A stretch of DNA of 16,196 nt, from NCBI GenBank assembly GCA_030538175.1, contig JAUNUL010000023.1, positions 1-16,196 on the forward strand. Reading direction: 5' to 3'. Of this stretch, positions 1 to 14,691 are shown piece by piece. Under the pieces are notes generated by a model, which saw only the letters and a list, made by a program, of their open reading frames with translations, was not told the DNA's origin and did no database searches. Origin of the DNA: Propionibacteriaceae bacterium (GTDB lineage: Bacteria; Actinomycetota; Actinomycetes; Propionibacteriales; Propionibacteriaceae). Position 1 is the stretch's first letter. The number at the start of each line of letters is the position of its first letter. The translations under genes were made by a program, and so were the position numbers.

Positions 1-1919
1 GCAACGGCAAGATCATCCAGGAGCTCGAGTCGTTCTTCCGCGGCGCCGGCTGGAATGTGATCAAGGTGCTGTGGGGCCGCGACTGGGATCCGCTGCTGGC
101 CCAGGACACCGACGGCACACTCGTGCACAAGATGAACAGCACCCCGGACGGCCAGTTCCAGACCTACACCGCAGAGTCGGGGGCGTACATCCGGGAGCAC
201 TTCTTCGGCGATCCCCGGCTGACGAAGATGATCGAGGGGATGACCGACGAAGACCTGCAGCGCCTGTCGCGTGGTGGCCATGATTATCGGAAGGTGTACG
301 CGGCCTTCCAGGCTGCGGCCAATCATCACGGTCAGCCGACGGTCATCCTCGCCCAGACCGTGAAGGGCTGGACGATCGAATCGTTCGAGGCCAAGAACGC
401 CACGCACCAGATGAAGAAACTGACCTCGAAGGACCTCAAGGCCTTCCGGGATCGCATCAAGATTCCCATCCCGGATGCGGACCTGGAGGACCCGAACAAC
501 CCTCCCTATTACCACCCGGGTGAGGATTCCGAGGTTATTCGGTATATGAAGCATCGCCGCCGCCAGCTCGGTGGCTTCGCACCGCGGCGGGCCGTGAAGC
601 CCCGGGAGTTGGCGCTGCCGAAGGACAAGCTCTATAAGCCGCTGCTCGTCTCCCCCGCCGAGGGCGAGAAGGTGCCAAAGATTGCGTCGACCCAGGCGTT
701 CGTGCGTCTGCTGCGCGATCTGATGCGGGACAAGGAATGGGGCGACCGGATTGTCCCGATCGCGCCGGACGAATACCGCACGTTCGGCATGGACTCCATG
801 TTCCCGACGAACAAGATCTATAACCCCAACGGGCAGATCTATGAATCGGTCGACCGGAAGCTGTTGTTGTCGTGGAAGGAGGCCACGAACGGCCAGCTCC
901 TCCATGAGGGCATTTCCGAGGCCGGCGGGCTCGGTTCGTTCACGGCAGCCGGGACGGCGTACGCGACGCACGGCGAGCCGATGATCCCGGTCTTCATGTT
1001 CTATTCGATGTTCGGGTTCCAGCGGGTCGGCGACTTCATCTGGGCCGCCACCGACCAGTTGGCCCGCGGCTTCCTGATCGGCGCGACCGCGGGTCGGACC
1101 ACGCTGACCGGTGAGGGGCTGCAGCACGCCGACGGACACTCGCCGCTGCTTGCCGCCTCGAATCCGGCGATCGTGCACTATGACCCGGCGTTCGGCTTCG
1201 AGATCGCCCACATCGTCAAGGACGGTCTGCGGCGGATGTATGGCTATGGCCTCGACGAGGCGAAGCCACACGGTGAGGACGTTATCTACTACATCACCGT
1301 CTATAACGAGCCCGTCGCGCAGCCGGGTCCGCCGGCGGATCTCGACGTCGACGGACTCCTCAAGGGCATGTATCTCTTCTCCCCCGCCCAGGGCAACAAG
1401 GACCAGGCGCAGGCACAGATCCTGGCGTCGGGCGTGGCAGTGCCGTGGGCACTCAAGGCCCAGCAGATGCTGCGCGACGAGTGGTCGGTGGATGCCGCGG
1501 TGTGGTCGGTGACGTCCTGGAACGAGCTGGCCCGCGAGGCGATGGCCGTCGAGGAGCGGAACTTCCGCCACCCGATGGAACCGAACAAGACGCCCTATGT
1601 CACCGAGTTGCTCGCCGACGCCAAGGGCCCCGTCATCGCCGTCAGCGACTATCAGCGCGCAGTGCAGGACCAGGTCCGGCCCTATGTGAAGCACGAGTGG
1701 CGTTCGCTCGGCACCGATGGGTTCGGGTTCTCCGACACACGTGCCGCGGCCCGTCGGTTCTTCATGGTGGACGCCGAGTCGATCGTCGTCAGCACTCTTG
1801 ATGCGCTGGCTCGGCAGGGGAACTATCGCGCGGAGGCTCCCGCCGAAGCGTTCCGTCGGTACAAGATCGACGATCCCCAGGCAGTCGGCCACGTCCAACA
1901 GGAGGGTGCGGGCGCGTGA
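1..1919 (+). CDS. aceE: Pyruvate dehydrogenase E1 component, 5'-truncated by window edge
   Basis: Thiamine-diphosphate E1 subunit that decarboxylates pyruvate and acetylates the lipoyl groups of E2 in the cytoplasmic pyruvate dehydrogenase complex. The reading frame is open from base 3 and begins [19 protein letters not shown], a conserved internal stretch of homodimeric AceE, so the gene starts upstream. About 638 residues are visible, against roughly 890-920 in the family. Visible landmarks are the active-site loop with THQMKK (His at 405-407), the [10 protein letters not shown] cofactor-pocket motif near 763-795, [10 protein letters not shown] near 900-930 and [12 protein letters not shown] near 1107-1143. 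The N-terminal His pair and the GDG...N Mg/ThDP motif lie off the window. The stop TGA overlaps the next start by 4 nt. No frameshift is seen in the visible part. The family call is near certain; in actinobacteria this E1 often works in a mixed PDH/ODH complex (known, not visible here). Confidence 0.97.
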
Positions 1920-2272
1920 GCCAACCCCTCACCGCCGATCAGGAGCGGTTGCTCGCGGCCATCGTCGCGCTCGAGGCTGGGCGCACGTTTGATGGCAACG
2001 AGCCCGCCCTGAACCACGGGCTGATCAGCCAGCTCATCGGGATCGAGGGTGAACCCGGCGACGGGCCGTGGCAGGTGCGTCTCGTCGCCCGGGATGCCCC
2101 GCGGATCGCGCTCAGCGACGGCCCGCTGCTGGGGCGCTATTGGGTCGGAGTCGATCGCCAGGGCGAGATCGTCGTCCGCGTTCGGGATGGGCTGCTGGTC
2201 TCGATGGAGTACGCCTGGTCCGGCGCGGAGCCCACCGGTTGGCCGGAGCCCGGGGACATCGTCACCGACTGA
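1916..2272 (+). CDS. Small hypothetical protein translationally coupled to aceE
   Basis: A 118-aa acidic protein whose family I do not recognise. The GTG start sits in a GTGA overlap with the aceE stop, and AGGAGGG at 1900-1906 lies 9 nt upstream, so both start and coupling are well supported. There is no signal peptide or membrane helix. The N-terminal third is helical ([18 protein letters not shown]). The middle looks like beta strands ([18 protein letters not shown], then [20 protein letters not shown]). The C-terminus is W/P-rich ([18 protein letters not shown]). It lacks Cys and His clusters, so it is not an obvious metal-binding protein. Co-expression with aceE is inferred from the overlap. 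The role is unknown; a PDH-associated accessory or an unrelated housekeeping protein are both possible. Confidence 0.85.
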
Positions 2273-2328
2273 TCGATCCCAGACGGTCGCACCCTCGTGC
2301 TCGAAGCCGCCGAGCGATGCGCTCGATC

Positions 2329-2344
2329 AGCCTCTTCAGAGGCT
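2329..2344 (+). terminator. Weak hairpin after the aceE operon
   Basis: AGCCTCTTCAGAGGCT folds into a 6-bp stem with a TTCA loop, 56 nt after the stop of the 118-aa gene. The following bases (TGGTCTCGT) are only slightly T-rich, so terminator function is uncertain. The rest of 2273-2400 shows no gene. Confidence 0.25.
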
Positions 2345-2400
2345 TGGTCTCGTACTGCAGCACGAGGCGCACAGGCGCCGGCATGCCTAGGGTGAGCCAC

Positions 2401-3630
2401 ATGGAGAACCCCGGCGCCTCGTTCGACCGCCTGCTCATGTGGGCACGCCGTCATGTCGTGGCCGTCGACGTGGCGTGGGCGGTCGCCTGGACGGGGCTCG
2501 CGCTGCTGTTTCAGCCGCCGTTCGATATGACCCCGGCCATGGAGGCGTGGTGGCTCGCGCTCGCGGTGGCGATGGGTGTCGCGTTGACGATGCGGCGCAC
2601 CCGCCCGCGGCTGGTCATCGCCGCGCTCGGCGTGCTCATGGTCATCCATCTGCTCGTGCTCGATGTCTTCACCATGCTGTCGGTCATCGCGACGGGGGCG
2701 GCGGCGTACACAGCCCACGCCCTGCTGGGTCGACGCGAGCGACGGCTGGTCACGGCCGTCGTGGCGATGGGGACAACGTGGGCGGCGCTCAACTATGCCC
2801 AGGACATTGTGCAGTTGGCGTGGTGGCAGCGGTGGCCGGTGGTGCTGGTGCATTGGTTGATCGTCGCGGTGTTCTGTCTGCTCGGGGCGCTGGCCCGCAA
2901 GCGTCGGGAAGAGCTCGCCCGGGCCGTGGAGCGGGCTGAGTTGGTCGCCCAGGGTCAGGCCCAGGAAGTACGCCTGGCCACCCTCGGCGAGCGCACGCAT
3001 ATCGCCCGGGAGATGCACGACATCGTCGCCCACTCACTCGGGGTGATCATCGCCCAGGCCGACGGCGGCAGGTACGCCGCAGCCGCCGACCCCGCCGCGG
3101 CCGTCCGGTCGCTGGAGACGATCGCGAACCTGGGGCGTACGTCCCTGGCGGAGATGCGGGAGCTCCTCAGCGTGCTCCGCCACGACGACACCCGGGACTT
3201 CGTGCCGGCCCCATCCCTGGCGGACCTCGACGAGCTGGCGGAGGACTATCGCAAGGCTGGGCTGCGCGTACGCCTCACCGAGACCGGCACCCCGGTCCCC
3301 CTGCCGGACACGATGGCGCTGACGGTCTATCGGGTCGTGCAGGAGTCGCTCGCGAACGCCCTCAAGCATGGCGGGCGGACGACTGTGGACGTCCGCCTCA
3401 CCTGGCCGGACGGTCCCCCACACGCACTCGTCATCACCGCCCGGAACCCCCTGGCGGACCCGAACCCCGGCGCTGATCTCGATCGCGAAGCCAGTCCGCC
3501 AGGCCACGGCCTGGTCGGCATGCGCGAGCGCGTGACCCTGCACGGCGGGACCCTGACGGTCGGTCCAGAGAGCGGGCTCTGGCACGTGCGCGCGGAGATC
3601 CCGCTTGCCTCTGAACGACCGGGGTCCTAG
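2401..3630 (+). CDS. NarL-family sensor histidine kinase (no adjacent regulator)
   Basis: A 409-aa membrane sensor kinase that should autophosphorylate on His and pass phosphate to a LuxR-type response regulator. Residues about 22-163 hold five or six hydrophobic helices with short loops, so it has no large extracellular sensor domain. A coiled region (165-200) leads to the HisKA_3 dimerisation domain with REMHDIVAHSLGV; the phospho-acceptor is His206. The ATPase domain shows an N-box QESLANALKHG (314-324) and a G-box GHGLVGMRERV (368-378). The ATG at 2401 is chosen because the preceding GGGTGAG lies 4 nt away; ATG 2383 (adding MPRVSH) is an alternative, and the longer open frame upstream is not kinase-like. 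Kinases of this type are usually followed at once by their regulator gene; here the stop codon directly abuts the stop of the convergent hsdR. The partner is either elsewhere or lost. Confidence 0.93.
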   Translation: MENPGASFDRLLMWARRHVVAVDVAWAVAWTGLALLFQPPFDMTPAMEAWWLALAVAMGVALTMRRTRPRLVIAALGVLMVIHLLVLDVFTMLSVIATGAAAYTAHALLGRRERRLVTAVVAMGTTWAALNYAQDIVQLAWWQRWPVVLVHWLIVAVFCLLGALARKRREELARAVERAELVAQGQAQEVRLATLGERTHIAREMHDIVAHSLGVIIAQADGGRYAAAADPAAAVRSLETIANLGRTSLAEMRELLSVLRHDDTRDFVPAPSLADLDELAEDYRKAGLRVRLTETGTPVPLPDTMALTVYRVVQESLANALKHGGRTTVDVRLTWPDGPPHALVITARNPLADPNPGADLDREASPPGHGLVGMRERVTLHGGTLTVGPESGLWHVRAEIPLASERPGS

Positions 3631-6600
3631 TCACGTCTGGCTGGCGTACTGGGGAGCGAGCACCTCCATCTGCTCGATCACCAACTTGACGGCCTCGGGC
3701 TGTTTGTCCGGTGGGTACTTGTATCGGCGCAGCAGCCGCCTGATGGCGGAACGCAGCTTGGCCTGGACGCCCTCGCGGCGGGTCCAGTCGGTCCTCGTGT
3801 CGCGCTGCATGACGCCCACGAGCTCGCGGGCGATCTGGGCGAGCACGTCCTCGCCCTGTTCGAGGACGGCGGATTCGTTCTGACTGACCGCGTCATAGAA
3901 CGCGAGTTCGTCGTGGGTCAGCGGCGGGGTGAACCGGTTGCCGCGCTGGGCTTCGGCGGTGACCTCCTCGGCGAGTTTGGCGAGCTCGGCGAGGACTTCG
4001 GCCATGGTGAGTTGCTGGTTGGTGTACCGCCGCATCAGGTCGCCGATGCGTTCGCTGAACGTCTTGCGCCGGACAACGTTGTTGGTGGTCGCCCGCGTCG
4101 CCTCCTCGACGAGCATGTCGCGGATCGCCTCGATGGCCAGGTGGATGTTGTCGGATTTCCCGGCCGCCGCGAAGGCTTTCGCGTTCAGCTTGCGCAGGTC
4201 CGGCAGCGGGATGCCGGCGACCTTGTAGATGTCGGTGATGTCCCCCGCGCTGGTGGCTTCGGCCATTGCGCCGCGCAGCGTACGCACGATCTCCTCGGGG
4301 ATCGGTTGGCCGTTCGCCTTGCGTTCGGCGGCGTCATATTTCGCCATCCAGACGCGGACCTCTTCGAAGAAGCGGGCGTCCGCGCGCAGGTCCGCGAGGG
4401 TTTCCGAACCGCTCGCGATCGCCCACATGCGACTCAGCTGGGAGGAGAGTTTGCGATACCGATCCCCTAGCGTGTCCTCGCCCTCGGCGACCTGGTTGCC
4501 GGGGGTGTTGGGGCTGCGAAGGTGCTCGACTGCTCCCCCGAGGGCCCTCAGCAGGCGGTTGGGGGCGTTGGTGAGCAGCAGCGTTCGCCAGTCGAAGCCC
4601 TGCAGCAGGGCACCCAGCCGGGTGATCAGGTCCCGGGTGACCGCGGCGGCCTCGTCGAGGTCACGGCCGAGTGGCTTGCTCTGCTGGTCGCTCGGGCTGT
4701 ATTCCAGCAGCGCTTCCCGCAGGTTGTCGGCGAGCGGGGCGTACCCGATCATGAGCCCGTCCTGCTTGCCGCGGAAGGTCCGGTTGACGCGCGCGAGGGT
4801 CTGCATGAGCAGGGCACCCTTGAGCGGGCGGTCGAGGAACAGGGTGTGCAGGGGCGGTGCGTCGAAGCCGGTCAGCATCATGTCCTTGACGATGACCAGC
4901 TCGAGCGGGTCGGTGACGTCTTTGAGCCGGTTCTTGATGACCTTGTTCTCGGAGTCGCGGCGGACGTGGTCCTGGATGGGTGGGCCGTCGGAGGCGTTGC
5001 CGGAATAGACGACCTTGATGGCGCCGGTGGTGATGTCGTCGGTGTGCCACTCGGGGCGCAGGGCGACGATTTCGGCGTACAGGTCCGCGCAGATAGCGCG
5101 GGTCGCGCAGACGATCATGGCCTTGCCGTAGGGCGTGGCCGTGTCGGTCGGGTCGGTGGGTTGGAGGGCTTCTGCCACGGCCGTACGCCGCAGTTCCCAC
5201 TGCTCGACGATGTCCTTGGCGAGCGCCTTGAGCCGGGCGGGGGCGCCGTAGATCGCGTTGATGACGGCGACGGATCGTTCGACCCGGTTGCGCTCGATGT
5301 CGTCGAGGCCGCGGGTCTCCTCGTCGGCGAGGGCATCGAGTTGTTCCTCGGTGACCTTGTCGGACAGCTTGACCTGGATGAGCCGGGGCTGGAAATAGAC
5401 GGGCACGGTGGCGCCGTCGGCGACGGCGCGGCTGAGGTCATAGATGTCGATGTAGTCGCCGAACACCTCGCGGGTGTTGCGCTCGGTGTCGCTGATCGGG
5501 GTGCCGGTGAAGGCGATGAGGGTGGCGTTGGGCAGCGCGTCCTTGAGGTGGCGGGCGTACCCATCCAAGTCGTCGTAGTGACTGCGGTGGGCCTCGTCGA
5601 CGATGACGATGACGTTGCGGCGGTCGGTGAGCAGCGGGTGGTCGAGGCCGGCGTCGCGTTCGTCCTGTTCGCGGCCGAACTTCTGCAGGGTGGTGAAGAT
5701 GATGCCGCCGGAGTTGCGGGAGCTGAGCTCGGCGCGCAGCTCGGAGCGGCGTTTGATCTGCAACGGCTTCTCGGCGAGCAGCGTGGACCGGTTGAACGTT
5801 TCGAACAGCTGGCCGTCGAGTTCTTTGCGGTCGGTGATCACGACGATCGTCGGGTTGAACATGCCGGGGTGGGTGACGATCAGGTTGGCGTACAGCTCCA
5901 TTTCCATGGACTTGCCCGAGCCCTGGGTGTGCCAGACGACGCCGGCTTTGCCGTTGGATTCCATGGCGCGCAGGGTGCTGTTGACGGCCTTGCGGACGGC
6001 GAAGAACTGGTGCGGTTTGGCGATCCGTTTGATGAGGCCTGCGTCCGTGGCGTCGAAGGCCGTGTAGTGCGCGACGATCGGGATGAAGCGCTCCGGATCG
6101 AACAGGCCGAACGTCAGGATCTCGAGCTCGGGGTTCTCGGCGCTGATCTCGACGGGCTGTCCCTGGTCGTCGACATTCCACGGTGAATAGTGGTTGAGGG
6201 GCGTGAACGGTGTCCCGTACTGCGCGAAGATCCCATCGCTGATCACCGTCGCCACGACCGTGCGGAACGCCATCGGGAATTCGCGGCGATAGGTGTCGAG
6301 TTGGGCATGCGCCTTCGCCACAGTCGCCTGCTTGTTGCCGGCCTGCTTGAGCTCCACGATCGCCAGCGGCAGACCGTTGACATAGAGCACGGCGTCGAGG
6401 CGGCGGTAGTGCTTGTTGTCCTTGAGCCGCACCTGCCGGATCGCGTGATAGGTGTTCTCCTCCGGATGGAGCGAGATGAGCCGGAGCGTCGGGGTCTCCT
6501 CCCGGCCGCTCGTGTCCGTGTACGTCAGCCCCCGGAACCCGTGCACCAGATGGTCATGGAACGCCTTATTCTCGGTGAGGGCGTCCTGCGAGCGCGGCTG

Positions 6601-6804
6601 GAGAATGTCGGCCAGGGCTTGGAGGAGATATTGATCGGGTACGCCCGGGTTCAGCCTCCGCAGCGCCATCAGGAAGTCCTCCTGATGCACCAGATCGGCG
6701 AGCGACGGACGCTGGGCCTCGAACTCGCTGCCTGTCCTGGGACGCCAATCGAGGTCGGCCAGCCATTCGAGCATGGCGTCTTCCCATTGGGATTCGGTGA
6801 TCAC
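3631..6804 (-). CDS. hsdR: Type I restriction enzyme R subunit (HsdR)
   Basis: A 1057-aa motor and nuclease subunit of a Type I restriction-modification complex. It translocates DNA with ATP and cuts when HsdS meets unmethylated targets. The N-terminal PD-(D/E)xK nuclease has Asp137 (RLDAVLYV) and Glu151-Lys153 (IVELKQ). The superfamily 2 helicase motifs follow: Walker A TQGSGKS (293-299), DEAH (403-406), FTGTP (432-436), MMLTGFDAP (642-650) and QTLARVNR (668-675), then a long helical C-terminus that binds HsdM/HsdS. All key residues and the full family length are present. The GTG start overlaps the abiEii stop as GTGA, with AAAGG about 6 nt upstream. It is not next to hsdM/hsdS but is the last gene of the AAA-abiE block, so its expression probably depends on that promoter. 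Its stop codon directly abuts the stop of the convergent histidine kinase gene. Confidence 0.97.
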   Translation of the reverse strand: MITESQWEDAMLEWLADLDWRPRTGSEFEAQRPSLADLVHQEDFLMALRRLNPGVPDQYLLQALADILQPRSQDALTENKAFHDHLVHGFRGLTYTDTSGREETPTLRLISLHPEENTYHAIRQVRLKDNKHYRRLDAVLYVNGLPLAIVELKQAGNKQATVAKAHAQLDTYRREFPMAFRTVVATVISDGIFAQYGTPFTPLNHYSPWNVDDQGQPVEISAENPELEILTFGLFDPERFIPIVAHYTAFDATDAGLIKRIAKPHQFFAVRKAVNSTLRAMESNGKAGVVWHTQGSGKSMEMELYANLIVTHPGMFNPTIVVITDRKELDGQLFETFNRSTLLAEKPLQIKRRSELRAELSSRNSGGIIFTTLQKFGREQDERDAGLDHPLLTDRRNVIVIVDEAHRSHYDDLDGYARHLKDALPNATLIAFTGTPISDTERNTREVFGDYIDIYDLSRAVADGATVPVYFQPRLIQVKLSDKVTEEQLDALADEETRGLDDIERNRVERSVAVINAIYGAPARLKALAKDIVEQWELRRTAVAEALQPTDPTDTATPYGKAMIVCATRAICADLYAEIVALRPEWHTDDITTGAIKVVYSGNASDGPPIQDHVRRDSENKVIKNRLKDVTDPLELVIVKDMMLTGFDAPPLHTLFLDRPLKGALLMQTLARVNRTFRGKQDGLMIGYAPLADNLREALLEYSPSDQQSKPLGRDLDEAAAVTRDLITRLGALLQGFDWRTLLLTNAPNRLLRALGGAVEHLRSPNTPGNQVAEGEDTLGDRYRKLSSQLSRMWAIASGSETLADLRADARFFEEVRVWMAKYDAAERKANGQPIPEEIVRTLRGAMAEATSAGDITDIYKVAGIPLPDLRKLNAKAFAAAGKSDNIHLAIEAIRDMLVEEATRATTNNVVRRKTFSERIGDLMRRYTNQQLTMAEVLAELAKLAEEVTAEAQRGNRFTPPLTHDELAFYDAVSQNESAVLEQGEDVLAQIARELVGVMQRDTRTDWTRREGVQAKLRSAIRRLLRRYKYPPDKQPEAVKLVIEQMEVLAPQYASQT

Positions 6805-7616
6805 AACTCGCCTTTCATGTCATTGGAGTCGAGATGACCGTCATCCAGGCGAGCAAGCAATTCGTCGCTGATGAGCGCTCCTGCGGAGTCGAGGTCGTAT
6901 CGATCCGGCCAACTGCGCACTAACGGCTCGAGGTCTTGTCTGAAGCTTGGGTCATTGAGTTTGCGATGCAGGTTCTCTCGTGCCCGGGCCGCAGTGAGCC
7001 CGACCGGCCGGTACGGCTCGAAAGCAGCGATCACGGCGAGTGGGTCCAGACCGAGATGATCCAGCGCCAGCCACATGTCGAACAGGTCCCGACCCTTCGA
7101 CCGCTGATAAAGCGCCCGGATCTTCGTCGCGATGAGCTCGGGCGTTTGGAACGTCAGGACCTGGGCGGTCCCGGACCACCAGGACGACTCCACACGATGC
7201 TCAAGGCGAATCGGTTGGAGAGCTGGCGAACGCTCGTGGGTGTTGACCTCGATCTTGAGCCGAAGGGGGACGCCCGTTTCGGCTGTCGTGCGCCAATAGA
7301 CCTTTGGATGCTGCCCGATGCGGGTCCTGACATCGAACCCAAGGCTGGTTCCTACGCGCGTGAGCGCCTGTGTCAGCGGAGCAATCCCGGCCGCGGAGGT
7401 CCGCACATAGTCGAGATCCTCACTGTAGCGATAGGCCCGATCGAGATGGAGTTTGTGCAGGGCCGTTCCACCCCGAAAGACGAGTTCAGAACTCAGGTAG
7501 TCATCGTCCGCGATCGCACAGATTGCCCGTGACAGAAGCAGATCCTGCTCGACCTGTTCTCTGGTCGACCAGTCTCGCTCGACACCCCAGGCCGTGATGG
7601 CGTTGGCGGGAATCAT
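6801..7616 (-). CDS. abiEii: AbiEii-type nucleotidyltransferase toxin
   Basis: A 271-aa protein of the AbiEii/MenT nucleotidyltransferase toxin family, the toxin of Type IV toxin-antitoxin and abortive-infection systems. Characterised relatives transfer nucleotides, in mycobacterial MenT proteins onto tRNA 3' ends. Motifs: FRGGTALHK (47-55), the metal-binding EDLD (66-69), KIEVN with the third acidic residue (121-125), and the family block ELIATKIRALYQRSKGRDLF with Lys165, Arg176, Asp177 and Asp180. All expected catalytic residues are present, so it should be active. The ATG at 7616 is chosen because it forms an ATGA overlap with the abiEi stop and begins MIPANAITAW, as family members do; the frame is open 13 codons further upstream. 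The stop overlaps hsdR by 4 nt. Target specificity cannot be read from the sequence. Confidence 0.93.
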   Translation of the reverse strand: MIPANAITAWGVERDWSTREQVEQDLLLSRAICAIADDDYLSSELVFRGGTALHKLHLDRAYRYSEDLDYVRTSAAGIAPLTQALTRVGTSLGFDVRTRIGQHPKVYWRTTAETGVPLRLKIEVNTHERSPALQPIRLEHRVESSWWSGTAQVLTFQTPELIATKIRALYQRSKGRDLFDMWLALDHLGLDPLAVIAAFEPYRPVGLTAARARENLHRKLNDPSFRQDLEPLVRSWPDRYDLDSAGALISDELLARLDDGHLDSNDMKGEL

Positions 7617-8410
7617 AGGTCGGGCTCGACTTTCCGATTCACATACACAAGCCACGCCTCGTCAACAGGACCCGAGGCCTGACCAAGTGGATCCAGCCTG
7701 GACGGCGTCGCGCCTGCTGCCTGAGCTGCTCTTCTGATCTGCTCCAGATCCTCGAAATCCCCGAACCGTTCCAGCAGGTATCCGATCCGACGAAGGGCTG
7801 CTGCGGGATACACGTCGGCCAACCGAACGACATCCTGCGCTCGGAACTGATCAAGTTCGGCCAGTTCGCAGATCACTGTGGCTGCGTTGTCGATGCCACC
7901 GGCGCGACGGATATCCGCCGCAATGTCCAGCGCTGTCGCGGCCACGGTGGAAACCTGCGCGGTCCCAGACCGGGTCGGGAACTGGGCTCGGGGGATCTGT
8001 TCGACATCACGTTGGGCGAACTCGAATCGGGTGCGCCCGACGGCCCTATCACGCACGTGACGGGTGACGGCTACCTGGAAGACCTGGGGCGCCTGATGAG
8101 CCGCACCATGAAGGGCGGCCGCCGAAAGCCACCCAACGTAGTAGTCCACGTCGAGGTAACCCATCATGGCGTCGATGATTTCCAATCCTGGCGGCGCTCC
8201 CCAGGTTCGATACTCCGGCGGAACCGGCACCCAGAGGCCCCGCACCGGCATGATCCATTCGTTGCGCCGAGCTGGTGCGTTCAGGCGCCGACGGACCTGG
8301 TCCGCGGGAACCTGCAACAGCTCGGCTAGGTCACCGACCGTGAACGCCGATCGGCCGTGCGCCAGCGCCCAGTCCGCAGACTCGGATGCCCGAACAGCTA
8401 CTCTCTCCAT
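7613..8410 (-). CDS. abiEi: AbiEi-type antitoxin and transcriptional repressor
   Basis: A 265-aa antitoxin of the AbiE system. The N-terminal part (about 15-65; FTVGDLAELLQVPADQVRRR, then WIMPVRGLWVPV) is the winged-helix DNA-binding domain. The middle and C-terminal parts (YYVGWLSAAALHGAAHQ, then VFQVAVTRHVRDRAVGRTR) match the AbiEi antitoxin fold. Known AbiEi proteins repress their own operon by binding inverted repeats and neutralise AbiEii without a stable complex (Type IV). ATG 8410 is preferred. The longest frame begins at TTG 8446, which would put the palindrome 8420-8438 inside the gene and overlap the ATPase by 25 nt. There is no strong Shine-Dalgarno before ATG 8410, so translation may be coupled to the ATPase gene or leaderless from a local promoter; the start remains the least certain point. 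It overlaps abiEii by 4 nt. Confidence 0.9.
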   Translation of the reverse strand: MERVAVRASESADWALAHGRSAFTVGDLAELLQVPADQVRRRLNAPARRNEWIMPVRGLWVPVPPEYRTWGAPPGLEIIDAMMGYLDVDYYVGWLSAAALHGAAHQAPQVFQVAVTRHVRDRAVGRTRFEFAQRDVEQIPRAQFPTRSGTAQVSTVAATALDIAADIRRAGGIDNAATVICELAELDQFRAQDVVRLADVYPAAALRRIGYLLERFGDFEDLEQIRRAAQAAGATPSRLDPLGQASGPVDEAWLVYVNRKVEPDL

Positions 8411-8419
8411 ATTCACAAT

Positions 8420-8438
8420 CGTCACAGAATCTGTGACG
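8420..8438. promoter_or_regulatory. Palindromic operator candidate upstream of abiEi
   Basis: CGTCACAGAATCTGTGACG is a perfect inverted repeat with 9-bp arms around one central base. It begins 10 bases upstream of the abiEi ATG and covers the stop codon of the ATPase gene. Its outer form CGTCA-N9-TGACG recurs at 9653-9671. Binding by AbiEi is inferred from family knowledge. A weak promoter, TTGCAG-N17-GACGAT on the minus strand (3/6 matches in each box), would place the palindrome in its spacer. Confidence 0.6.
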
Positions 8439-9585
8439 TTCTGCAATCTAGCGAGAATGCTAGCTCTGGGGGCGCAACCAGGCTCTGGACCGCGTCGGAC
8501 TTGGGCAGGTCGGCCGCAAGCTCGTCCGCCACCTCATCGATCTCCGACAGCAGCTGTGCCGAGGAGCCATCGCCCGTCACGCGGAGCACCAGGATCTCGC
8601 GAGGCAATACGCCTTCGTCATCCAGCAGTTCGGGTGCGTGGGTCGATAGCAGCACCTGCATCGTGGCATCGCGCTGGGCGACGGCCAGCATGGTTGCCAA
8701 CATGCGAACAATCGCTGCATTGAGGGACAGCTCCGGCTCTTTGAGCAGAAGCACACCACGGTTAGCCGGGGCGCTGACCAGAGTCCAGAGCAGTCCGATA
8801 AGCCGCAGCGTCCCATCGGAGAAATCGACCTCGTTCTGTTTGGCCTGCCGCTCCCGCCAGTTGCGATAGCCGGCGATCAGATGGGGTTGCCCCGTGGCAT
8901 CAACCTCGATCGTCAATGACTCGAAATCGGGCACCACAGGCTTGAGAGCCTTCTCCATTCGGCGCAGCCATGCATCCCTGGTCTTCTGTGGTGTCGCATT
9001 CATCTGAGCAATGAAGTCACTGCCGTGCGCCTCGCCGCTCGCTCCCGCCAACCACCGTGGATTCCTGATGACTTGGGGGACGAGGTGGACATAGCGGACC
9101 TTGGAGAAGTATTCCGCCAGCGGCCGAAAGGACTGATTCGCAGAGATCTGTTCCAGATGTGTTTGCGTCAGTCTCTCGGGGTCCTCAACATCGTTCGCAT
9201 CTGGGCGCCGAAGGATCTCCTCGCCGTTCTTGATGACGACTTCTTCGTGGACGATCGGCTGGTTCTTCCCACCCTGTGCCCCTTTGACGGACAGGATGTA
9301 TTGCCGCGTGTCCTGGCCGTCGGCGAGCGTGAAGTCCACGACAAGTCGGCCACCGGCATTGTTCCGTGCGAACAGGCTGCGAACCTTGGACAGACCGCCT
9401 CGACGGTCCAGCGCGGACGAGAGTCCGCCGCCGGAGGCAGCAAGGTCCCCCATGAAGCGGAACAGGTCCAAGAGGTTGGACTTGCCGGACGCGTTCGGCC
9501 CCACGATGAACAGTCGCGAGTCAACGAGGACGTTGATGTTCTTGAAGTTCCTCCAGTTGGACGCCCCGACGCGCGTGATGCGCAT
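8422..9585 (-). CDS. AAA_21-type (RecF/OLD-like) ATPase in the defence operon
   Basis: A 387-aa cytoplasmic ATPase with the SMC/RecF-like split fold common in defence proteins. The N-terminal MRITRVGASNWRNFKNINV leads to Walker A GPNASGKS (29-36). An ABC-signature-like FSDGTLRLIGL (255-265), a Walker B region VLLLKEPELSLN (278-289) and an H-loop LLSTHAPELLD (312-322) follow. The position normally holding the Mg-coordinating acidic residue of Walker B is Lys282 (codon AAA, one base from GAA), so ATP hydrolysis may be impaired. There is no TOPRIM or nuclease domain, so it is not a full OLD or GajA protein. The ATG is well supported by GAGAGGAGG at 9592-9600, 6 nt upstream. It is the first gene of the block ending with abiEi, abiEii and hsdR, and its stop lies inside the abiEi palindrome. 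Its partner is unknown; it could assist AbiE or HsdR, or be a separate defence gene. Confidence 0.88.
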   Translation of the reverse strand: MRITRVGASNWRNFKNINVLVDSRLFIVGPNASGKSNLLDLFRFMGDLAASGGGLSSALDRRGGLSKVRSLFARNNAGGRLVVDFTLADGQDTRQYILSVKGAQGGKNQPIVHEEVVIKNGEEILRRPDANDVEDPERLTQTHLEQISANQSFRPLAEYFSKVRYVHLVPQVIRNPRWLAGASGEAHGSDFIAQMNATPQKTRDAWLRRMEKALKPVVPDFESLTIEVDATGQPHLIAGYRNWRERQAKQNEVDFSDGTLRLIGLLWTLVSAPANRGVLLLKEPELSLNAAIVRMLATMLAVAQRDATMQVLLSTHAPELLDDEGVLPREILVLRVTGDGSSAQLLSEIDEVADELAADLPKSDAVQSLVAPPELAFSLDCRTSQIL

Positions 9586-9641
9586 CAGCCGCCTCCTCTC
9601 ATTGCGGTGAGTCCGATCAGTGCTGGTCGGTGGCTCTCTCC

Positions 9642-9682
9642 GGATTGACGAACGTCATGATTTCCGTGACGTTCGTCAATCC
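9642..9682. promoter_or_regulatory. Large perfect inverted repeat, likely operator of the AAA-abiE-hsdR block
   Basis: Two perfect 16-bp arms (GGATTGACGAACGTCA, 9642-9657, and its complement, 9667-9682) flank a 9-nt spacer. Each arm holds a near-palindrome, giving half-sites TGACG 9646, CGTCA 9653, TGACG 9667 and CGTCA 9674. The same half-site recurs every 21 bp, about two helical turns. The inner 9653-9671 has the CGTCA-N9-TGACG form of the abiEi site. On the minus strand a possible -10 TATTCT (9693-9688) would start RNA near 9681, at the edge of the repeat; the -35 is poor (TTGGCT at 15 nt). No T-run follows on either strand, so an intrinsic terminator is less likely than a protein-binding site. 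It lies in the only gap inside the island (9586-9733). Confidence 0.65.
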
Positions 9683-9733
9683 AGCCGAGAATAGGATTCG
9701 GGTCGCGCAGCCAAAATCGTCCTGGTCATGAAG

Positions 9734-10939
9734 CTACCGCCCGTCGTTGACGTCTGCGAGGCGCATCGACCACAGCGAGCCTTCGACCTGCTCGATGGCA
9801 TCGCGTACGCGGAGTCGCCCATCCATCAGTGCCGGCAACAGAGTGTCTCTGAGCTCAGTAAGGGCGGCGGACTCTCGGATGGCGGCTTCAACAGCTTCTC
9901 TGATGGAAACCACATTGCTGGACAGCCTCACGGCGGTCTCCTGATCCGCCCAGCGGACAGGCGCCTCGCTCAGGTCTGTCCACGACGCCCGCGGCATCTT
10001 CGTGCCTGCACTGCGGGCCGTGCTGTGATCAACAACTTCCGCAGAACTTGCGGCGGCGAGGACATATCCGGCCAGGTCAGGATCCCTCGCTCGCAATACC
10101 AGGATGTCGGTCGAGCACATGCCCTCGACCGGTGCCGACACCACTTTGTGAAAGTAGGGACGGAGCTTCCCGAAGAGTACGTCCCTGGCACTGAACACGG
10201 ACTTAGCGCTGGTCACCTCATCGCTCACCCCTTGTTGTTGGAGCCACATGTGCTGACGACCCAGGTGTTCAAGACCCACATACGGAATGCGGCCCTGAGG
10301 TCGAACTTGTTCCCGAATGTTGAAGCACAGGTCTCCCAGGACAGTCGTCGACGGCGGGAGTGCAGAGTACAGGCTACGCACAAGAGAGTCGGAGGTTTCA
10401 GCGATGCGCGAGTTGGCGGCGATCTTGTCGTCCAGCGCCCCCAGCACCTCGGCGATGGCTCGCTGCTCCGAAAGTTCAGGTATAAGTAACTCGAACTCGA
10501 GAATTCGATTGGGACTAGTGTGGCGAACCGTCGTTCCCGTTGCTGACGCCAGGACAAACTGATGATAATCAGCGAGACGCATTCTGTAGGACAGAAATCG
10601 CAGGTCTACAGATCCGTTCTTCACGATAACGTGCCCGATCCGCTGATTGTGCAGATATGTGATTCCGTCGTTGGGAACGATGGCCCAGTTCCCGAGTGTG
10701 TCACCAGCCTTGCTCAGGTCAGTCATGGTCACAACCGCGGAACCAGGCGGGAGTTCCCAGTGCGCATCATATTCAGCTTGAAAGGTCTTGGCGCGACTGG
10801 GCCGAAATCCCTCTGAAATCGAAAAATTTCCCGGGGTGAGAAGCGTCGGAAACTTCGAGTCAACCGAGAAAGATTTCCCGGGGAAGGCAAACCCGTGTTT
10901 GATCTCGACCAAATCCCTAAGGGCGACCAATCTCTCCAT
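9734..10939 (-). CDS. hsdS: Type I restriction-modification specificity subunit (HsdS)
   Basis: A 401-aa subunit that selects the bipartite DNA target for both methylation and restriction. It has the two-repeat layout: target recognition domain 1 (about 10-150, with GFAFPGKSF and QRIGHVIVKNG), a central conserved helix after LLIPELSEQRAIAEVLGALD (about 152-190), recognition domain 2 (about 195-330, with VLFGKLRPYFHKV and STDILVLRARD), and a C-terminal helix ending TLLPALMDGRLRV (about 335-377). The length is normal and both domains are complete. The ATG at 10939 is chosen over GTG 10942 because GGAGG at 10945-10949 is 5 nt from the ATG but only 2 nt from the GTG. It follows hsdM with a 1-nt overlap (TGATG). 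The first recognition domain is clearly lower in G+C than neighbouring genes, which suggests domain exchange. The recognised sequence cannot be predicted. Confidence 0.95.
   Translation of the reverse strand: MERLVALRDLVEIKHGFAFPGKSFSVDSKFPTLLTPGNFSISEGFRPSRAKTFQAEYDAHWELPPGSAVVTMTDLSKAGDTLGNWAIVPNDGITYLHNQRIGHVIVKNGSVDLRFLSYRMRLADYHQFVLASATGTTVRHTSPNRILEFELLIPELSEQRAIAEVLGALDDKIAANSRIAETSDSLVRSLYSALPPSTTVLGDLCFNIREQVRPQGRIPYVGLEHLGRQHMWLQQQGVSDEVTSAKSVFSARDVLFGKLRPYFHKVVSAPVEGMCSTDILVLRARDPDLAGYVLAAASSAEVVDHSTARSAGTKMPRASWTDLSEAPVRWADQETAVRLSSNVVSIREAVEAAIRESAALTELRDTLLPALMDGRLRVRDAIEQVEGSLWSMRLADVNDGR
10821..10883. repeat. Short direct repeat inside hsdS
   Basis: GAAAAATTTCCCGGGG (10821-10836) and GAAAGATTTCCCGGGG (10868-10883) match at 15 of 16 bases with a 47-nt offset. 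The copies are read in different frames of hsdS, so the similarity is at DNA rather than protein level. It may be chance. Confidence 0.4.
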
Positions 10940-12594
10940 CACAACCTCCCGAGCTGCTGGCGTACGACCGCCTGCAGACGATCCGATTCCCGGAACTGCT
11001 CCTCGAGCTCAGCCGTGAGCCGCGCGATCTTCTCGTCCAGCGGTTCGCCGTCGTCCTCGGTTTCGGCCATGCCGACGTACCGGCCGGGGGTGAGGGCGTA
11101 CCCCGCTTCCTTGATCTCCGCCAACGTGGCGGACTTGCAGAAGCCGGGGACGTCGGCGTACTGCTCCGACGAAACGACTGACTCGTCCGCGGGTGCTGCG
11201 TCGTCCGCACCCGTCACATCGACGGTGCCCAGGGGGAGGCGCTGCATGCCGCGCCAGGCGTGGTACGTGTCCGCGATCTTGTGGATGTCCGCGCTCGAGA
11301 ACGCCCGCTCGGCACGGGTCACCATGTGACCCATCGACCGGGCATCGATGAACAAGACCTGCCCGCGCCGATCAACCGACCCACCCTGACCGGCGCTCTT
11401 GTCCTTGGCGAAGAACCACAGACAGACCGGAATGCCAGTCGAGCGGAACAGCTTCTCGGGCAGCGCGATCATGCAGGCGACGAGATCGTTCTCCACCAAC
11501 TGCGCGCGGATCTCACCCTCTCCCCCGCTGTTGGTCGTCATCGACCCATTCGCCAAGACGACACCAGCCGTCCCGCCCGGTGCGAGCTTGGAGATGATGT
11601 GCTGCAGCCACGCATAGTTGGCATTACCCGCCGGCGGCACGCCATAAACCCAGCGTGCATCGTCCTCGTTGCGGTTCCAGTCCTTGATGTTGAACGGCGG
11701 GTTCGCCATCACATAATCCATCTGGACACCCGCGTGATAATCGAGCGCGAAGGTGTCACCCCAGGTTGCGGCGAGATTGCCGTTGAGCCCGTGAATGGCG
11801 AGGTTCATCTTCGCCATGCGCCACGTCGACTCATTCAATTCCTGGCCATAAACGGACAGGTTCGACGGATCCTCGTCGTGCGCCGCAAGGAACTTCTCGG
11901 CCTGCACGAACATGCCACCCGACCCACAACACGGGTCATAGACCCGGCCCTTGTGCGGCTGCAACATCTCCACGATCACGCGAACGACGCTGGCGGGCGT
12001 GTAGTACTCCCCACCACGTCGTCCCTCCGCCGAGGCGAACTTGGCCAGGAAATACTCATAGACCTCACCCAGCAAATCCCGCGCCTTCGAGGCCCCCTGG
12101 CCCGTGAACTGCACCGAGTTCAGCAGATCCAGCAGCTCCGCCAGGCGCCGCTGGTCGACATTGGGGCGATTGAACAAGCGCGGCAACGTGCCGGACAACG
12201 ACGGGTTCGCGCTCATCAACAGGTCCATCGCGCCATTGATCCGCTGCCCGATCGTGGTCTCCGACGTGACCTTCGCCAGCTGCACCAACGACTCCCAGCG
12301 CGCCTCAGGATCGACCCAGAACACGCCCGAGCCGGCGTACTCATCCGGATCCTCCAACGTCTCCGCGATCTCGTCCTCGTCAAAGCCATCGGCCTGCAAC
12401 TCATCGACGATCGCGTTGCGACGTTCGGTGAAGGCGTCGGAGACATACTTGAGGAAGATCAACCCCAGAACCACGTCCTTGTATTGCGACGCATCCATCG
12501 ACCCCCGCAGCTTGTCCGCCGCTTTCCAGAGCGTGTCCTTCAGTTCCTTCGGCGTCGATGGGATGAGCATCTCGGCCTGTTTCCTTGCTGCCAC
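10939..12594 (-). CDS. hsdM: Type I restriction-modification DNA methyltransferase (HsdM)
   Basis: A 551-aa N6-adenine methyltransferase subunit that, with HsdS, methylates the host targets. The N-terminal helical HsdM domain (KELKDTLWKAADKLRGSMDA, followed by VVLGLIFLKYVSDAF) is followed by GEYYTP (195-200), the S-adenosylmethionine site DPCCGSGG (220-227) and the catalytic NPPF (298-301). The C-terminal coiled segment (about 515-550) should contact HsdS. Length and motifs are typical, so it is probably active. The GTG start at 12594 lies directly after the TAA of the upstream gene, with GAGAAAGG at 12602-12609, 7 nt away. Together with the upstream methylase-like gene and hsdS it forms one unit without gaps. 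It is well separated from hsdR. Confidence 0.97.
   Translation of the reverse strand: MAARKQAEMLIPSTPKELKDTLWKAADKLRGSMDASQYKDVVLGLIFLKYVSDAFTERRNAIVDELQADGFDEDEIAETLEDPDEYAGSGVFWVDPEARWESLVQLAKVTSETTIGQRINGAMDLLMSANPSLSGTLPRLFNRPNVDQRRLAELLDLLNSVQFTGQGASKARDLLGEVYEYFLAKFASAEGRRGGEYYTPASVVRVIVEMLQPHKGRVYDPCCGSGGMFVQAEKFLAAHDEDPSNLSVYGQELNESTWRMAKMNLAIHGLNGNLAATWGDTFALDYHAGVQMDYVMANPPFNIKDWNRNEDDARWVYGVPPAGNANYAWLQHIISKLAPGGTAGVVLANGSMTTNSGGEGEIRAQLVENDLVACMIALPEKLFRSTGIPVCLWFFAKDKSAGQGGSVDRRGQVLFIDARSMGHMVTRAERAFSSADIHKIADTYHAWRGMQRLPLGTVDVTGADDAAPADESVVSSEQYADVPGFCKSATLAEIKEAGYALTPGRYVGMAETEDDGEPLDEKIARLTAELEEQFRESDRLQAVVRQQLGRL
10945..10949 (-). promoter_or_regulatory. Ribosome binding site deciding the hsdS start
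   Basis: GGAGG on the minus strand is 5 nt from ATG 10939 and 2 nt from GTG 10942, which favours the ATG. It lies within the last codons of hsdM. Confidence 0.6.
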
Positions 12595-14511
12595 TTAACG
12601 GCCTTTCTCGTGGAGTGTTGGGGATTCAATGACGGTGATGGCCCCCGAGAGGACCGAACGGGTGACCAGCCGACGGAGCTCGTCCGCTTCGGCCTGACGG
12701 CGCCGAAGGTCAGCCTCCAGCGCATCGAGCCGGTCGAGGATCGCGCTGGCGTGATGCTCGTCGATCTGCAGCACCGGCAGCTCCCAGGTCTGCCATTGGG
12801 CGTTCCCGGGCGGGAGCCGGTTGATGGCGGCCGCGACCGCGCTGGGCGCGAGCTTGGGTGAGGTGACGCGCAGGACGCGTGCCGGGTACGCCACCGCCGA
12901 CCCACCCGCCGCATCCACCACGGCCCTCGGCGTGGCCTTGGTGGTGAAGACAACATCCCCCGGCTCGGTCAGCTTCACCGACGGGACCGCCAGGGTCAGC
13001 GCCAACAGATCAACCGAGTCGGCGACCCCAGCCGCGACGGCCTCCGCGGTCCACAGGCGCGTCGAGCCCGCGGGCAGCTCGGGCACGCGCGTGCCGGGCA
13101 GCAGTTTGACCAGGCCGTGGCGCTGGGCATCCCCCATCCGCGCCGAGCACGGCGCCGCCTGCTCTGCCGCCAGTGCCGTGAACGGAAACGGGTCCGGCAG
13201 CGGTTGGAGCAGCCCCGCGCGCAGGTCCGCGATCCGGGCCGCATCCCCGGCGGGATCCAGCGCGTACGCCACCGCCCGCGCCCGATCATGCGCCACGAGC
13301 GAGCCACCCCGGCTGATGGCCTGCCGCCGATCGGCGAGTTCGAGCACGTCGAACGCACGCCCCGACACCGGTCCCGCGGCCGCAACCAGATCATCGACGA
13401 ACGACAGCTGCAGCGGCCGGTCGAACGCACGGCCCGAGATGTCACCGACGAGGAACGCCCCGGCCCGACCCACCGGGTGCGGGTCCGGCTGCACCATCAG
13501 CCACACCGCCAGGTGCTGGCGGGCGCCGCCCCTGGTCAGCCCGGCCGGGAGGCGGACGATGCCCCGCACCACACCGCCACGCAGCAACTCGTCGCGTCGC
13601 TCAGCAGCGGCCAGCGGATCGGTGAGGAGCGCTGCCGGGCCGATGACGACGGCGCAGGCATCGACGGGCAGCTCGGTGGCTACCTCGTGCAGGAGGTCGA
13701 AGGCGGCGCTCGGGTCGCCGGGCAGGCGTATCAACACCACACTCCCCTCCGGCACCGACCACTCCTGAGCCAACGGGACCACGCGCGGCCGGATGCCCTG
13801 CGTGCGATAGCGCCGCACCACGTCACGGGGCGGCGAGGACCACGGCAGCACCAGCGCAGGGGTCGGGAAATCCTCATCCGCGGTCAGCGAGAGCACCACA
13901 TCCGCACACGTCCCGTCGACATCGACGAGGCAGCCGTCCACCCCGAGGACACCCCGGACCACCTCGGCCAGGGCGGTCGTTAGGTGCGGATCAAGGCGTT
14001 CGTCATGCGCGGTCGAATGGCGGTGGAGGGCGTCGTGAAGCCGTTCGTACGCCGCCCGCGGGTGCCACGCGGCATCAGCGACAGCATCCGCCTCCGCCGC
14101 CAATGGGGCGAGCGTCGCCGCGTCGAGGGCTTCCACCTCGCTGAACAGGAAGTCGTCATCGGGGTCGAGCTCATCGACGGCGTCGAGCAGGTCGTCACGA
14201 TCGAGCGGGCCGACCGGCTCATCCAGGAGCGTGCGGGCGGTGAGCAGCGCCATCAGCTGCGCCAGCCGGTCCGGATCCTGATCCGCAGCCGTGACGGCAT
14301 GGACCGCCAACTCCGCGCGCGGATCCGGATTCTTGCCGCGTCCCGTGCGTTCGAGATAATCGACGATCTCCGCCCCCTCGAACCGCCCGTCGGGCAGCGG
14401 GTCCGGGAACACCAGACCATCCTTGTCCCGCTGGCGCCACATCGAGACCACCGGACGCTGCACCCGAGCCAGCGCCGCCACATCGGCGAGCGACAACGTG
14501 ATCGTGCTCAT
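12595..14511 (-). CDS. HTH / inactive methylase-like / HsdS-like fusion protein
   Basis: A 638-aa protein of the actinobacterial N6-methylase-like type that opens the restriction-modification operon. The N-terminal MerR/AlpA-like helix-turn-helix is LSLADVAALARVQRPVVSMW (6-25) plus a wing with DGRFEGAEIVDYLE (41-54). The middle (about 150-415) follows the methylase fold order, with RRDELLRGGVVRGIVRLPAG (305-324) and HLAVWLMVQPD (333-343) as in N6-methylase C-terminal strands. The SAM motif position reads LVDVDGTCADVVLS (195-208) and the NPPF/NPPY position reads IRLPGD (261-266), so catalysis is not expected. The C-terminus (GDVVFTTKATPRAVV at 518-532, WELPVLQIDEHH at 576-587, coiled coil about 588-625) resembles one HsdS target-recognition half with its helix. 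ATG 14511 is chosen for its AAGGGAG site. Its role is unknown; a DNA-binding partner or regulator of the HsdMS complex is the best guess. Confidence 0.85.
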   Translation of the reverse strand: MSTITLSLADVAALARVQRPVVSMWRQRDKDGLVFPDPLPDGRFEGAEIVDYLERTGRGKNPDPRAELAVHAVTAADQDPDRLAQLMALLTARTLLDEPVGPLDRDDLLDAVDELDPDDDFLFSEVEALDAATLAPLAAEADAVADAAWHPRAAYERLHDALHRHSTAHDERLDPHLTTALAEVVRGVLGVDGCLVDVDGTCADVVLSLTADEDFPTPALVLPWSSPPRDVVRRYRTQGIRPRVVPLAQEWSVPEGSVVLIRLPGDPSAAFDLLHEVATELPVDACAVVIGPAALLTDPLAAAERRDELLRGGVVRGIVRLPAGLTRGGARQHLAVWLMVQPDPHPVGRAGAFLVGDISGRAFDRPLQLSFVDDLVAAAGPVSGRAFDVLELADRRQAISRGGSLVAHDRARAVAYALDPAGDAARIADLRAGLLQPLPDPFPFTALAAEQAAPCSARMGDAQRHGLVKLLPGTRVPELPAGSTRLWTAEAVAAGVADSVDLLALTLAVPSVKLTEPGDVVFTTKATPRAVVDAAGGSAVAYPARVLRVTSPKLAPSAVAAAINRLPPGNAQWQTWELPVLQIDEHHASAILDRLDALEADLRRRQAEADELRRLVTRSVLSGAITVIESPTLHEKGR

Positions 14512-14517
14512 CAGCGG

Positions 14518-14524
14518 CTCCCTT
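14518..14524 (-). promoter_or_regulatory. Ribosome binding site deciding the start of the methylase-like gene
   Basis: AAGGGAG on the minus strand lies 6 nt before ATG 14511. It supports MSTITLSLAD as the N-terminus over the upstream start at 14559. Confidence 0.65.
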
Positions 14525-14552
14525 CGTGCCTGGACAGGAACCAACCTAGACC

Positions 14553-14581
14553 TTGGCATGCAGATTTCCTAGCTCAATAGT
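14553..14581 (+). promoter_or_regulatory. Candidate sigma70-like promoter of the lipoprotein gene
   Basis: TTGGCA (14553-14558), a 17-nt spacer, then AATAGT (14576-14581) match the consensus boxes at 5/6 and 4/6. Transcription would start near 14588, inside the inverted repeat 14581-14598, leaving a leader of about 100 nt before ATG 14692. The assignment rests on pattern only. Confidence 0.4.
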
Positions 14582-14598
14582 GATAAGGGGGCTTATCA
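14581..14598. promoter_or_regulatory. Inverted repeat TGATAAG-N4-CTTATCA in the divergent region
   Basis: Perfect 7-bp arms flank GGGG. The site sits between the divergent lipoprotein gene and the restriction-modification operon, just downstream of the candidate -10 box, where an operator would lie. It differs in sequence from the CGTCA sites near abiEi, so another regulator is implied. No T-run supports a terminator. Confidence 0.45.
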
Positions 14599-14691
14599 GG
14601 CCTCCCGCTATGCTGATTCCCGCCTGTCCTCCATCGTGGGTTTCGACGACGCCGGCGACAAGCGCCGGACAGCGACCCAAGGAGTGATCCC

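Follow-up and report, generated by a model that had tools for sequence, protein, structure and literature searches.

The 16,196-nucleotide (nt) stretch of contig JAUNUL010000023.1 (assembly GCA_030538175.1, Propionibacteriaceae bacterium) that was analysed in the present work, hereafter the window, carries a Type I restriction-modification operon in which an AbiE toxin-antitoxin cassette occupies a cargo slot between hsdS and hsdR. In this position the cassette probably co-regulates hsdR through its antitoxin AbiEi, a reading that we hold, on the basis of sequence comparisons, with moderate confidence. The genes lie on the minus strand in the order 654 amino acid (aa) protein gene, hsdM, hsdS, a 148-nt gap, an AAA ATPase gene, abiEi, abiEii and hsdR. 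The Type I gene set is complete (viz. hsdR, hsdM, and hsdS, all with their family domains), AbiEi and AbiEii family proteins are encoded side by side as in Type IV toxin-antitoxin systems of the AbiE type, and these toxin-antitoxin genes are located between hsdS and hsdR on the same strand.

Much of the evidence for control by AbiEi is located at the start of abiEi, which is overlain by a candidate operator (Table 1). The block upstream of abiEi is common to six near relatives (ATTGCA-AACGT-AC--TTTCTGTGACGATTGT), to which the window is 63-73% identical from -30 to 0 and 81-90% identical from 0 to +21 (positions relative to abiEi), and the fall in identity to 13-37% further upstream indicates that the cassette has its left boundary near -25. 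The motif CGTCA-N9-TGACG is present exactly at -13 in L022, L024, and L042 (L, G, and C denote our locus, genome, and contig numbers); one half-site is changed in L023 and L041, L056 differs, and the same geometry recurs with other letters in relatives (viz. CGTTA-N9-TAACG and TCTCA-N9-TGAGA) and, as AGTAA-N9-TTACT, at -13 of abiEi in L071. Enough upstream sequence for a count of palindromes was available in 75 of the 78 loci with an abiEi match. Palindromes with 5-nt arms were found upstream of abiEi with N7 spacing in 35/75 and with N9 spacing in 29/75 of these relatives, whereas the in-gene control gave 16 and 12 and shuffling gave means of 8.1 and 8.9 (maximum 15); other odd spacings were also raised, partly via nested longer arms, and N3 and N5 were at or below the in-gene control. 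The inverted repeat by which AbiE systems are recognized is represented in the window by this conserved palindrome at the abiEi promoter region. Because of the conserved upstream block and the extended motif at the abiEi start, the cassette seems to have kept its own promoter/operator, with hsdR directly behind it.

Another copy of the motif is found in the hsdS-AAA gap, within a long perfect inverted repeat (Table 1) whose core at 9671-9653 reads CGTCACGGAAATCATGACG. The short motif CGTCA-N9-TGACG is present at 8 places in the whole assembly, which is 88% complete, and its longer form, GAACGTCA-N9-TGACG, at only 2 places in the 3.2 Mb of the assembly, viz. the abiEi start and the hsdS-AAA gap. 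The loci of the AAA relatives showed no copy of the 10-base core ahead of AAA. A possible -10 element is the TATTCT hexamer at 9693-9688; the promoter scan described below does not list it.

The starts of abiEi, abiEii, and hsdR are GTG at 8425, ATG at 7616, and GTG at 6804, respectively, the first being indicated by the frame V-T-I/V-V-x-M, which near relatives keep from that codon. Overlaps of 4 nt are present between hsdM and hsdS, between AAA and abiEi (GTGA, given the abiEi start at 8425), between abiEi and abiEii (ATGA), and between abiEii and hsdR (GTGA). An earlier note on this DNA had described hsdR as parted from hsdM and hsdS by three genes (AAA, abiEi, and abiEii), which the open reading frames (ORFs), Pfam, and PADLOC all bear out, and the latter two overlaps, upon which it drew, are confirmed. 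Its use of stop/start overlaps as evidence of linkage does not hold, since these are the usual layout in this family of hsd operons. Of its proposal that an AbiEi repressor acts at the locus, the part that survives is likely binding, which the conserved block, the two-place motif, and the gapless position of hsdR suggest; the argument from overlaps falls away.

To characterize the slot, loci were taken from two draws, one of 293 genomes from the order (the best 40 HsdR places) and one of 394 genomes from the class (22 places besides the window). Of these 62 loci, 54 that carry hsdR of at least 38% identity with hsdM upstream were kept and 8 (L168-L171, L227, L229, L236, and L245) were dropped, hsdM being out of range or hsdR insufficient; the longer L245 and L246 took the place of L147 and L154, one ORF each in L166 and L224 was read as HsdS and not counted as cargo, and hsdS of L164 was taken from a separate listing. 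The usual layout in the relatives is hsdM-hsdS-hsdR, often headed by a gene of the 654-aa type, and hsdS abuts or overlaps hsdR (in 18/24 cargo-free loci with hsdS listed, the two genes touch or share 1-4 nt, with longest-ORF starts). Extra ORFs of at least 90 aa are present between hsdS and hsdR in 15/54 loci, which is no unbiased rate, the loci being the best HsdR matches. A 4-nt overlap with the hsdR start, like that of abiEii in the window, is also shown by the final cargo gene of L133 and L140, and in view of these loci and of the abutting or overlapping hsdS of the relatives, the overlap at the hsdR start is ordinary. The 4-nt overlaps were also considered as the sign of a special operon, an idea that we reject because the hsdS/hsdR junction of cargo-free relatives is similar.

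The cargo found in this slot is diverse. DarT with a macro-domain partner is present in three genomes of one genus (g28) that belongs to the same family as the window, namely L148 (assigned by Pfam) and L149 and L246 (both by visible similarity). Other cargos include a PemK/MazF-like toxin (L233), a MerR/DUF433 and PIN-like pair (L162), HTH-IrrE (L133), RhuM (L159), schlafen-like proteins (L142 by Pfam; L140 and one ORF of L246 by similarity), the YhcG nuclease (L216 by Pfam; L150 by similarity), and Ymh (L234 by Pfam; L164 by similarity); the cargo of L145 gave no Pfam match, and the Pfam scan left out L146 and some ORFs of L150, L216, and L246. Besides RhuM, L159 carries a ParE-type toxin gene, preceded by a short ORF, in the interval from hsdM to hsdS (9061-9581). 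The slot between hsdS and hsdR is a known cargo site, and the window holds AbiE there.

A profile scan of genome contigs identified 125 AbiEii relatives, of which the best 80 were examined; an abiEi match is located beside abiEii in 78/80, and the contigs extend at least 500 nt beyond abiEii in 74/80. HsdR and HsdM queries of other subfamilies (E 1e-5) added none among these 80 relatives except L071, an Eggerthellaceae metagenome-assembled genome in which an N6_Mtase gene starts 3 nt behind abiEi-abiEii and precedes a Methylase_S gene (748-5301). As judged from these sequences, an AbiE pair of the window's clade has been inserted into a different hsd operon, ahead of hsdM. In a phylum sample of 296 genomes (AbiEii at E 1e-12 and hsdR at E 1e-80, both within 10 kb), at least 2 contigs besides the window, G887:C160 and G708:C13, were found among the matches listed. 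The former (L247, 1023-9288) carries an AbiEi-AbiEii pair, its AbiEi being of another family, immediately ahead of hsdM, and between its hsdS and hsdR lie two antisense genes, PIN and Phd_YefM-like (the latter below the Pfam cut-off); in the latter (L248) the AbiEii match is downstream of hsdR. Within its own assembly abiEii is the sole PF08843 match. A search of viral contigs with the AbiEii alignment found no relatives, AbiEi gave no sequence match in PDB at E 0.1, and AbiEii gave one weak PDB match (6y56_A, E 0.0042).

The AAA gene upstream of abiEi appears to have a different origin. Its HEC-01A-like product (PDLC04180, 1.2e-155) matches the ATPase of the PADLOC candidate system HEC-01. 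Matches of its relatives end at residue 376-377 of 387 (with rows split in G045 and G191; a further partial relative, G289, is cut at the contig end). A frame with VxVEG directly follows the AAA match in 7/7 relatives whose sequence covers the AAA end (altered just behind the motif in L239), and the complete short gene of L241 shows a weak resemblance to DUF4276 (E 0.029, below the cut-off). This short gene, present in the relatives, is absent in the window, where abiEi comes in its place. The window AAA reads LLLKEPE and five aligned relatives LLLEEPE, a Lys for Glu at what is, in our reading, the presumed Walker-B site; its C-terminal tail is found in 0/5 of these relatives, and its last residues are coded by the candidate abiE operator. 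Based upon the missing short gene, the Lys for Glu change, and the tail coded by the candidate operator, AAA is probably the remnant of another module, to whose 3' end AbiE became joined, and the absence of the relatives' next gene together with the origin of the tail makes the AAA-abiEi overlap look accidental. Hence, the designed unit of AAA, abiEi, abiEii, and hsdR envisaged in the earlier note is not upheld. AAA as a working partner of AbiE was likewise considered and is disfavoured by the different next gene of the relatives, the Lys change, and the unmatched tail. The locus L238 (7108-10751) is a decayed slot: a pair resembling that of L133 is followed by AAA, a VVVEGESD-type frame, and an hsdR remnant that matches residues 2-49 of HsdR, which suggests that AAA was itself once carried as cargo in the slot.

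Taken together, the Type I operon (unnamed gene-hsdM-hsdS-hsdR) has a cargo slot between hsdS and hsdR, and we propose that this slot holds what remains of an AAA-ATPase module, to the 3' end of which an AbiE cassette has been attached, and that the cassette brought its own promoter/operator over the abiEi start, a like site being present before AAA. By analogy with characterized AbiE systems, AbiEi is expected to occupy a site over its own start and probably one before AAA as well; bound at both candidate sites, it would limit transcription of abiEi, abiEii, and hsdR. Transcripts from the abiE promoter should include hsdR because it follows abiEii without a gap, and with hsdM and hsdS upstream of both sites, the level of AbiEi would influence HsdR and not HsdM or HsdS. 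The gene order, the overlaps, the slot with its varied cargo in relatives, the conserved block at the abiEi start, and the two-place motif are direct observations, whereas binding by AbiEi, a promoter in the conserved block, hsdR on the abiE transcript, and a lower level of HsdR as the result are the parts of this proposal that we infer. A wider role for AbiEi as a controller is doubtful, though conceivable: it would hold down AAA, the toxin, and HsdR but not HsdM and HsdS, methylation would precede restriction in a new host, and loss of AbiEi (e.g., upon translation shut-off by a phage) would release toxin and nuclease together. The delay of restriction and the punishment of island loss are extrapolations, and the second is disfavoured in that cells usually tolerate the loss of a Type I system.

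Several points weigh against control of hsdR by AbiEi. A motif of the CGTCA-N9-TGACG type is absent in many distant AbiE relatives. The motif was picked after the window and its relatives had been viewed, so its two copies in the window (0.03 expected; two copies in 0/200 shuffles) provide no independent test, and the restriction of the longer motif to two places is a stronger fact than this shuffle value. The AbiEi sites described in the passages of PMC7319586 on characterized AbiE systems are 23-bp inverted repeats in pairs, and the palindrome of the window is shorter, a comparison made by description and not by letters. A sigma-70 scan of 3400-14700, a method ill-suited to GC-rich DNA, gave no minus-strand promoter, and hsdR may depend on read-through from hsdMS or on a promoter inside abiEii. 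Matches to the window-type hsdR, and to its AAA, were found in 0/80 AbiE relatives (E 1e-6), no direct abiEii-hsdR adjacency besides that of the window was present among the matches listed for the 296 genomes, and in L071 and L247 the AbiE pair precedes hsdM, not hsdR, which speaks against a selected circuit. The order abiEii-hsdR, whose uniqueness to this genome the earlier note had regarded as fatal to its proposal, is so far known from one genome, and a widespread AbiE-hsdR pairing was not found among the best 80 AbiE relatives or the matches listed for the 296 genomes. This weakens a selected circuit; it does not show that AbiEi spares hsdR. By the same reasoning, AbiE would control hsdM in L071 and L247, which argues that the position of AbiE follows from insertion rather than from selection for timing.

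The cassette may instead be passive cargo, an independent addiction or abortive-infection module, hsdR being expressed mostly via read-through from the hsd promoter with negligible control by AbiEi. That the slot takes many unrelated cargos favours this explanation, as does the overlap of hsdS by the first ORF after it in L145, L146, L148, L149, L162, and L234, which suggests one transcript; the single genome with abiEii-hsdR and the AbiE pairs before hsdM in L071 and L247 point in the same direction. However, a 148-nt gap parts hsdS from the cargo in the window, both extended motif copies are upstream of hsdR, and read-through RNA must pass a 16-bp perfect stem; we give this explanation tentative credence.

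It is rather unlikely that the gap repeat is a terminator for hsdMS, leaving the abiEi-start site as the only AbiEi operator. The repeat lies after a gene end, and the 61-nt stretch containing it folds at -36 kcal/mol as RNA, but no T-run follows, the terminator scan does not list it, its exact GAACGTCA-N9-TGACG core is shared with the abiEi site and with no other place in the assembly, and long perfect repeats are also found upstream of abiEi in L032 and L039. We see little chance that AAA, AbiE, and HsdR work together in a single defence complex, or that selection has built a circuit with the antitoxin setting the time of restriction in the manner of C proteins. The continuous overlapping frames and the AbiEi-type sites before both AAA and abiEi are consistent with such a unit; however, a different short gene follows AAA in seven relatives, the five aligned AAA relatives have Glu for Lys and lack the window tail, and the arrangement is not conserved (0/80 AbiE relatives with the window hsdR).

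The coordinates of the features are summarized in Table 1. The PADLOC results agree with the Pfam assignments across the locus, the AAA protein being nearest to HEC-01A, and HsdR contains the Pfam domains HSDR_N, SWI2_SNF2, and T1RH-like_C (PF04313, PF18766, and PF11867). The 654-aa protein at the operon head has no match in Pfam, PADLOC, or NCBIfam; it has tblastn matches in 40/69 loci with hsdR and hsdM (one locus, L154/L246, being counted twice), and in four plasmid records the gene ahead of hsdM is labelled "N-6 DNA methylase" or "hypothetical protein". A divergent lipoprotein-like gene (14692-15249, plus strand), with tblastn matches in 4/72 hsd loci (L135, L138, L139, and L141), adjoins the operon, and a DUF4352 protein is encoded near the hsd operon of an Arthrobacter plasmid (L172). 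Beyond hsdR lies a partial aceE-type pyruvate dehydrogenase E1 gene (3-1919, plus strand).

Table 1. Features of the hsd-AbiE locus in the window.
Feature	Coordinates	Strand	Characteristics
hsdR, restriction and translocase subunit	3631..6804	-	TIGR00348 9.2e-141
abiEii, nucleotidyltransferase-like toxin	6801..7616	-	AbiEii PF08843 7.5e-28
abiEi, antitoxin, presumed autorepressor	7613..8425	-	AbiEi_1, PF09407 9.9e-27; PADLOC AbiEi 6.8e-70
Candidate abiE operator CGTCACAGATTCTGTGACG	8420..8438	-	Spans AAA stop and abiEi start
AAA ATPase, HEC-01A-like	8422..9585	-	AAA_21 PF13304 9.9e-28; PADLOC HEC-01A 1.2e-155
41-bp perfect inverted repeat, candidate second AbiEi operator	9642..9682	-	16-bp arms, 9-nt centre
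hsdS, specificity subunit	9734..10942	-	Methylase_S PF01420 2.2e-8; PADLOC Specificity_I 9.6e-71
hsdM, Type I methyltransferase	10939..12594	-	N6_Mtase PF02384 1.5e-109; HsdM_N 4.5e-27
654-aa unnamed protein, operon head	12595..14559	-	ORF

Antitoxin control of hsdR would be new. If it is true, and a drop-in antitoxin cassette captures hsdR under its own operator, timing of restriction could be gained in one recombination step, and toxin-antitoxin pairs in the hsdS-hsdR slot would become candidate regulators, not merely cargo. The two-place motif makes control by AbiEi open to simple binding and reporter assays. The slot itself and toxin-antitoxin cargo within it are already known, DarTG2 having been published there; the literature searched gave no case of AbiE as slot cargo that has apparently kept its operator and has hsdR immediately after it. 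A search of titles and abstracts, with preprints outside its scope, found no published description of AbiE beside hsdR, and the paper on "genetically embedded" defence cited by PMC12255303 may list AbiE.

Variable genes inside Type I hsd loci are also exemplified by the rlo genes of Campylobacter jejuni, which are other genes than those of the window. In Type II systems, C proteins delay the nuclease relative to the methyltransferase. The role proposed for AbiEi resembles theirs in this delay, as it is described in passages of PMC12255303; however, C proteins are Type II regulators, whereas the system here is of Type I and AbiEi, an antitoxin, belongs to another family. As summarized in the same paper, ClpXP degrades HsdR and thereby restrains restriction by EcoKI in a new host (PMC12255303). 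The AbiE system of Streptococcus agalactiae and Rv2827c-Rv2826c are like the window in having an AbiEi/AbiEii pair with inverted repeats before abiEi, and AbiEi of S. agalactiae and Rv2827c autoregulate via inverted repeats in their promoters; unlike in the window, the passages on these systems mention no restriction gene on their transcripts (PMC7319586). A close likeness is to the RptR-RMS-DarTG2-M48 island of enteropathogenic E. coli, where, as in the window, a toxin-antitoxin pair is located between hsdS and hsdR of a Type I system, at a site that the authors, in passages of their article, call a potential recombination hotspot and at which four other genomes carry a gene pair with an AAA-like ATPase (PMC12255303). 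The toxin family differs (DarTG2 in the island, AbiE in the window), and the gene upstream of hsdM codes for a 654-aa protein in the window (where the presence of RptR was not searched for) versus the 79-aa RptR, the small repressor of the island, which is likened to C proteins in those passages (PMC12255303). In the RptR island, a separate repressor gene at the operon head represses the island promoter, whereas in the window the putative repressor is the antitoxin itself, encoded after hsdM and hsdS, and only the downstream part, including hsdR, would be affected.

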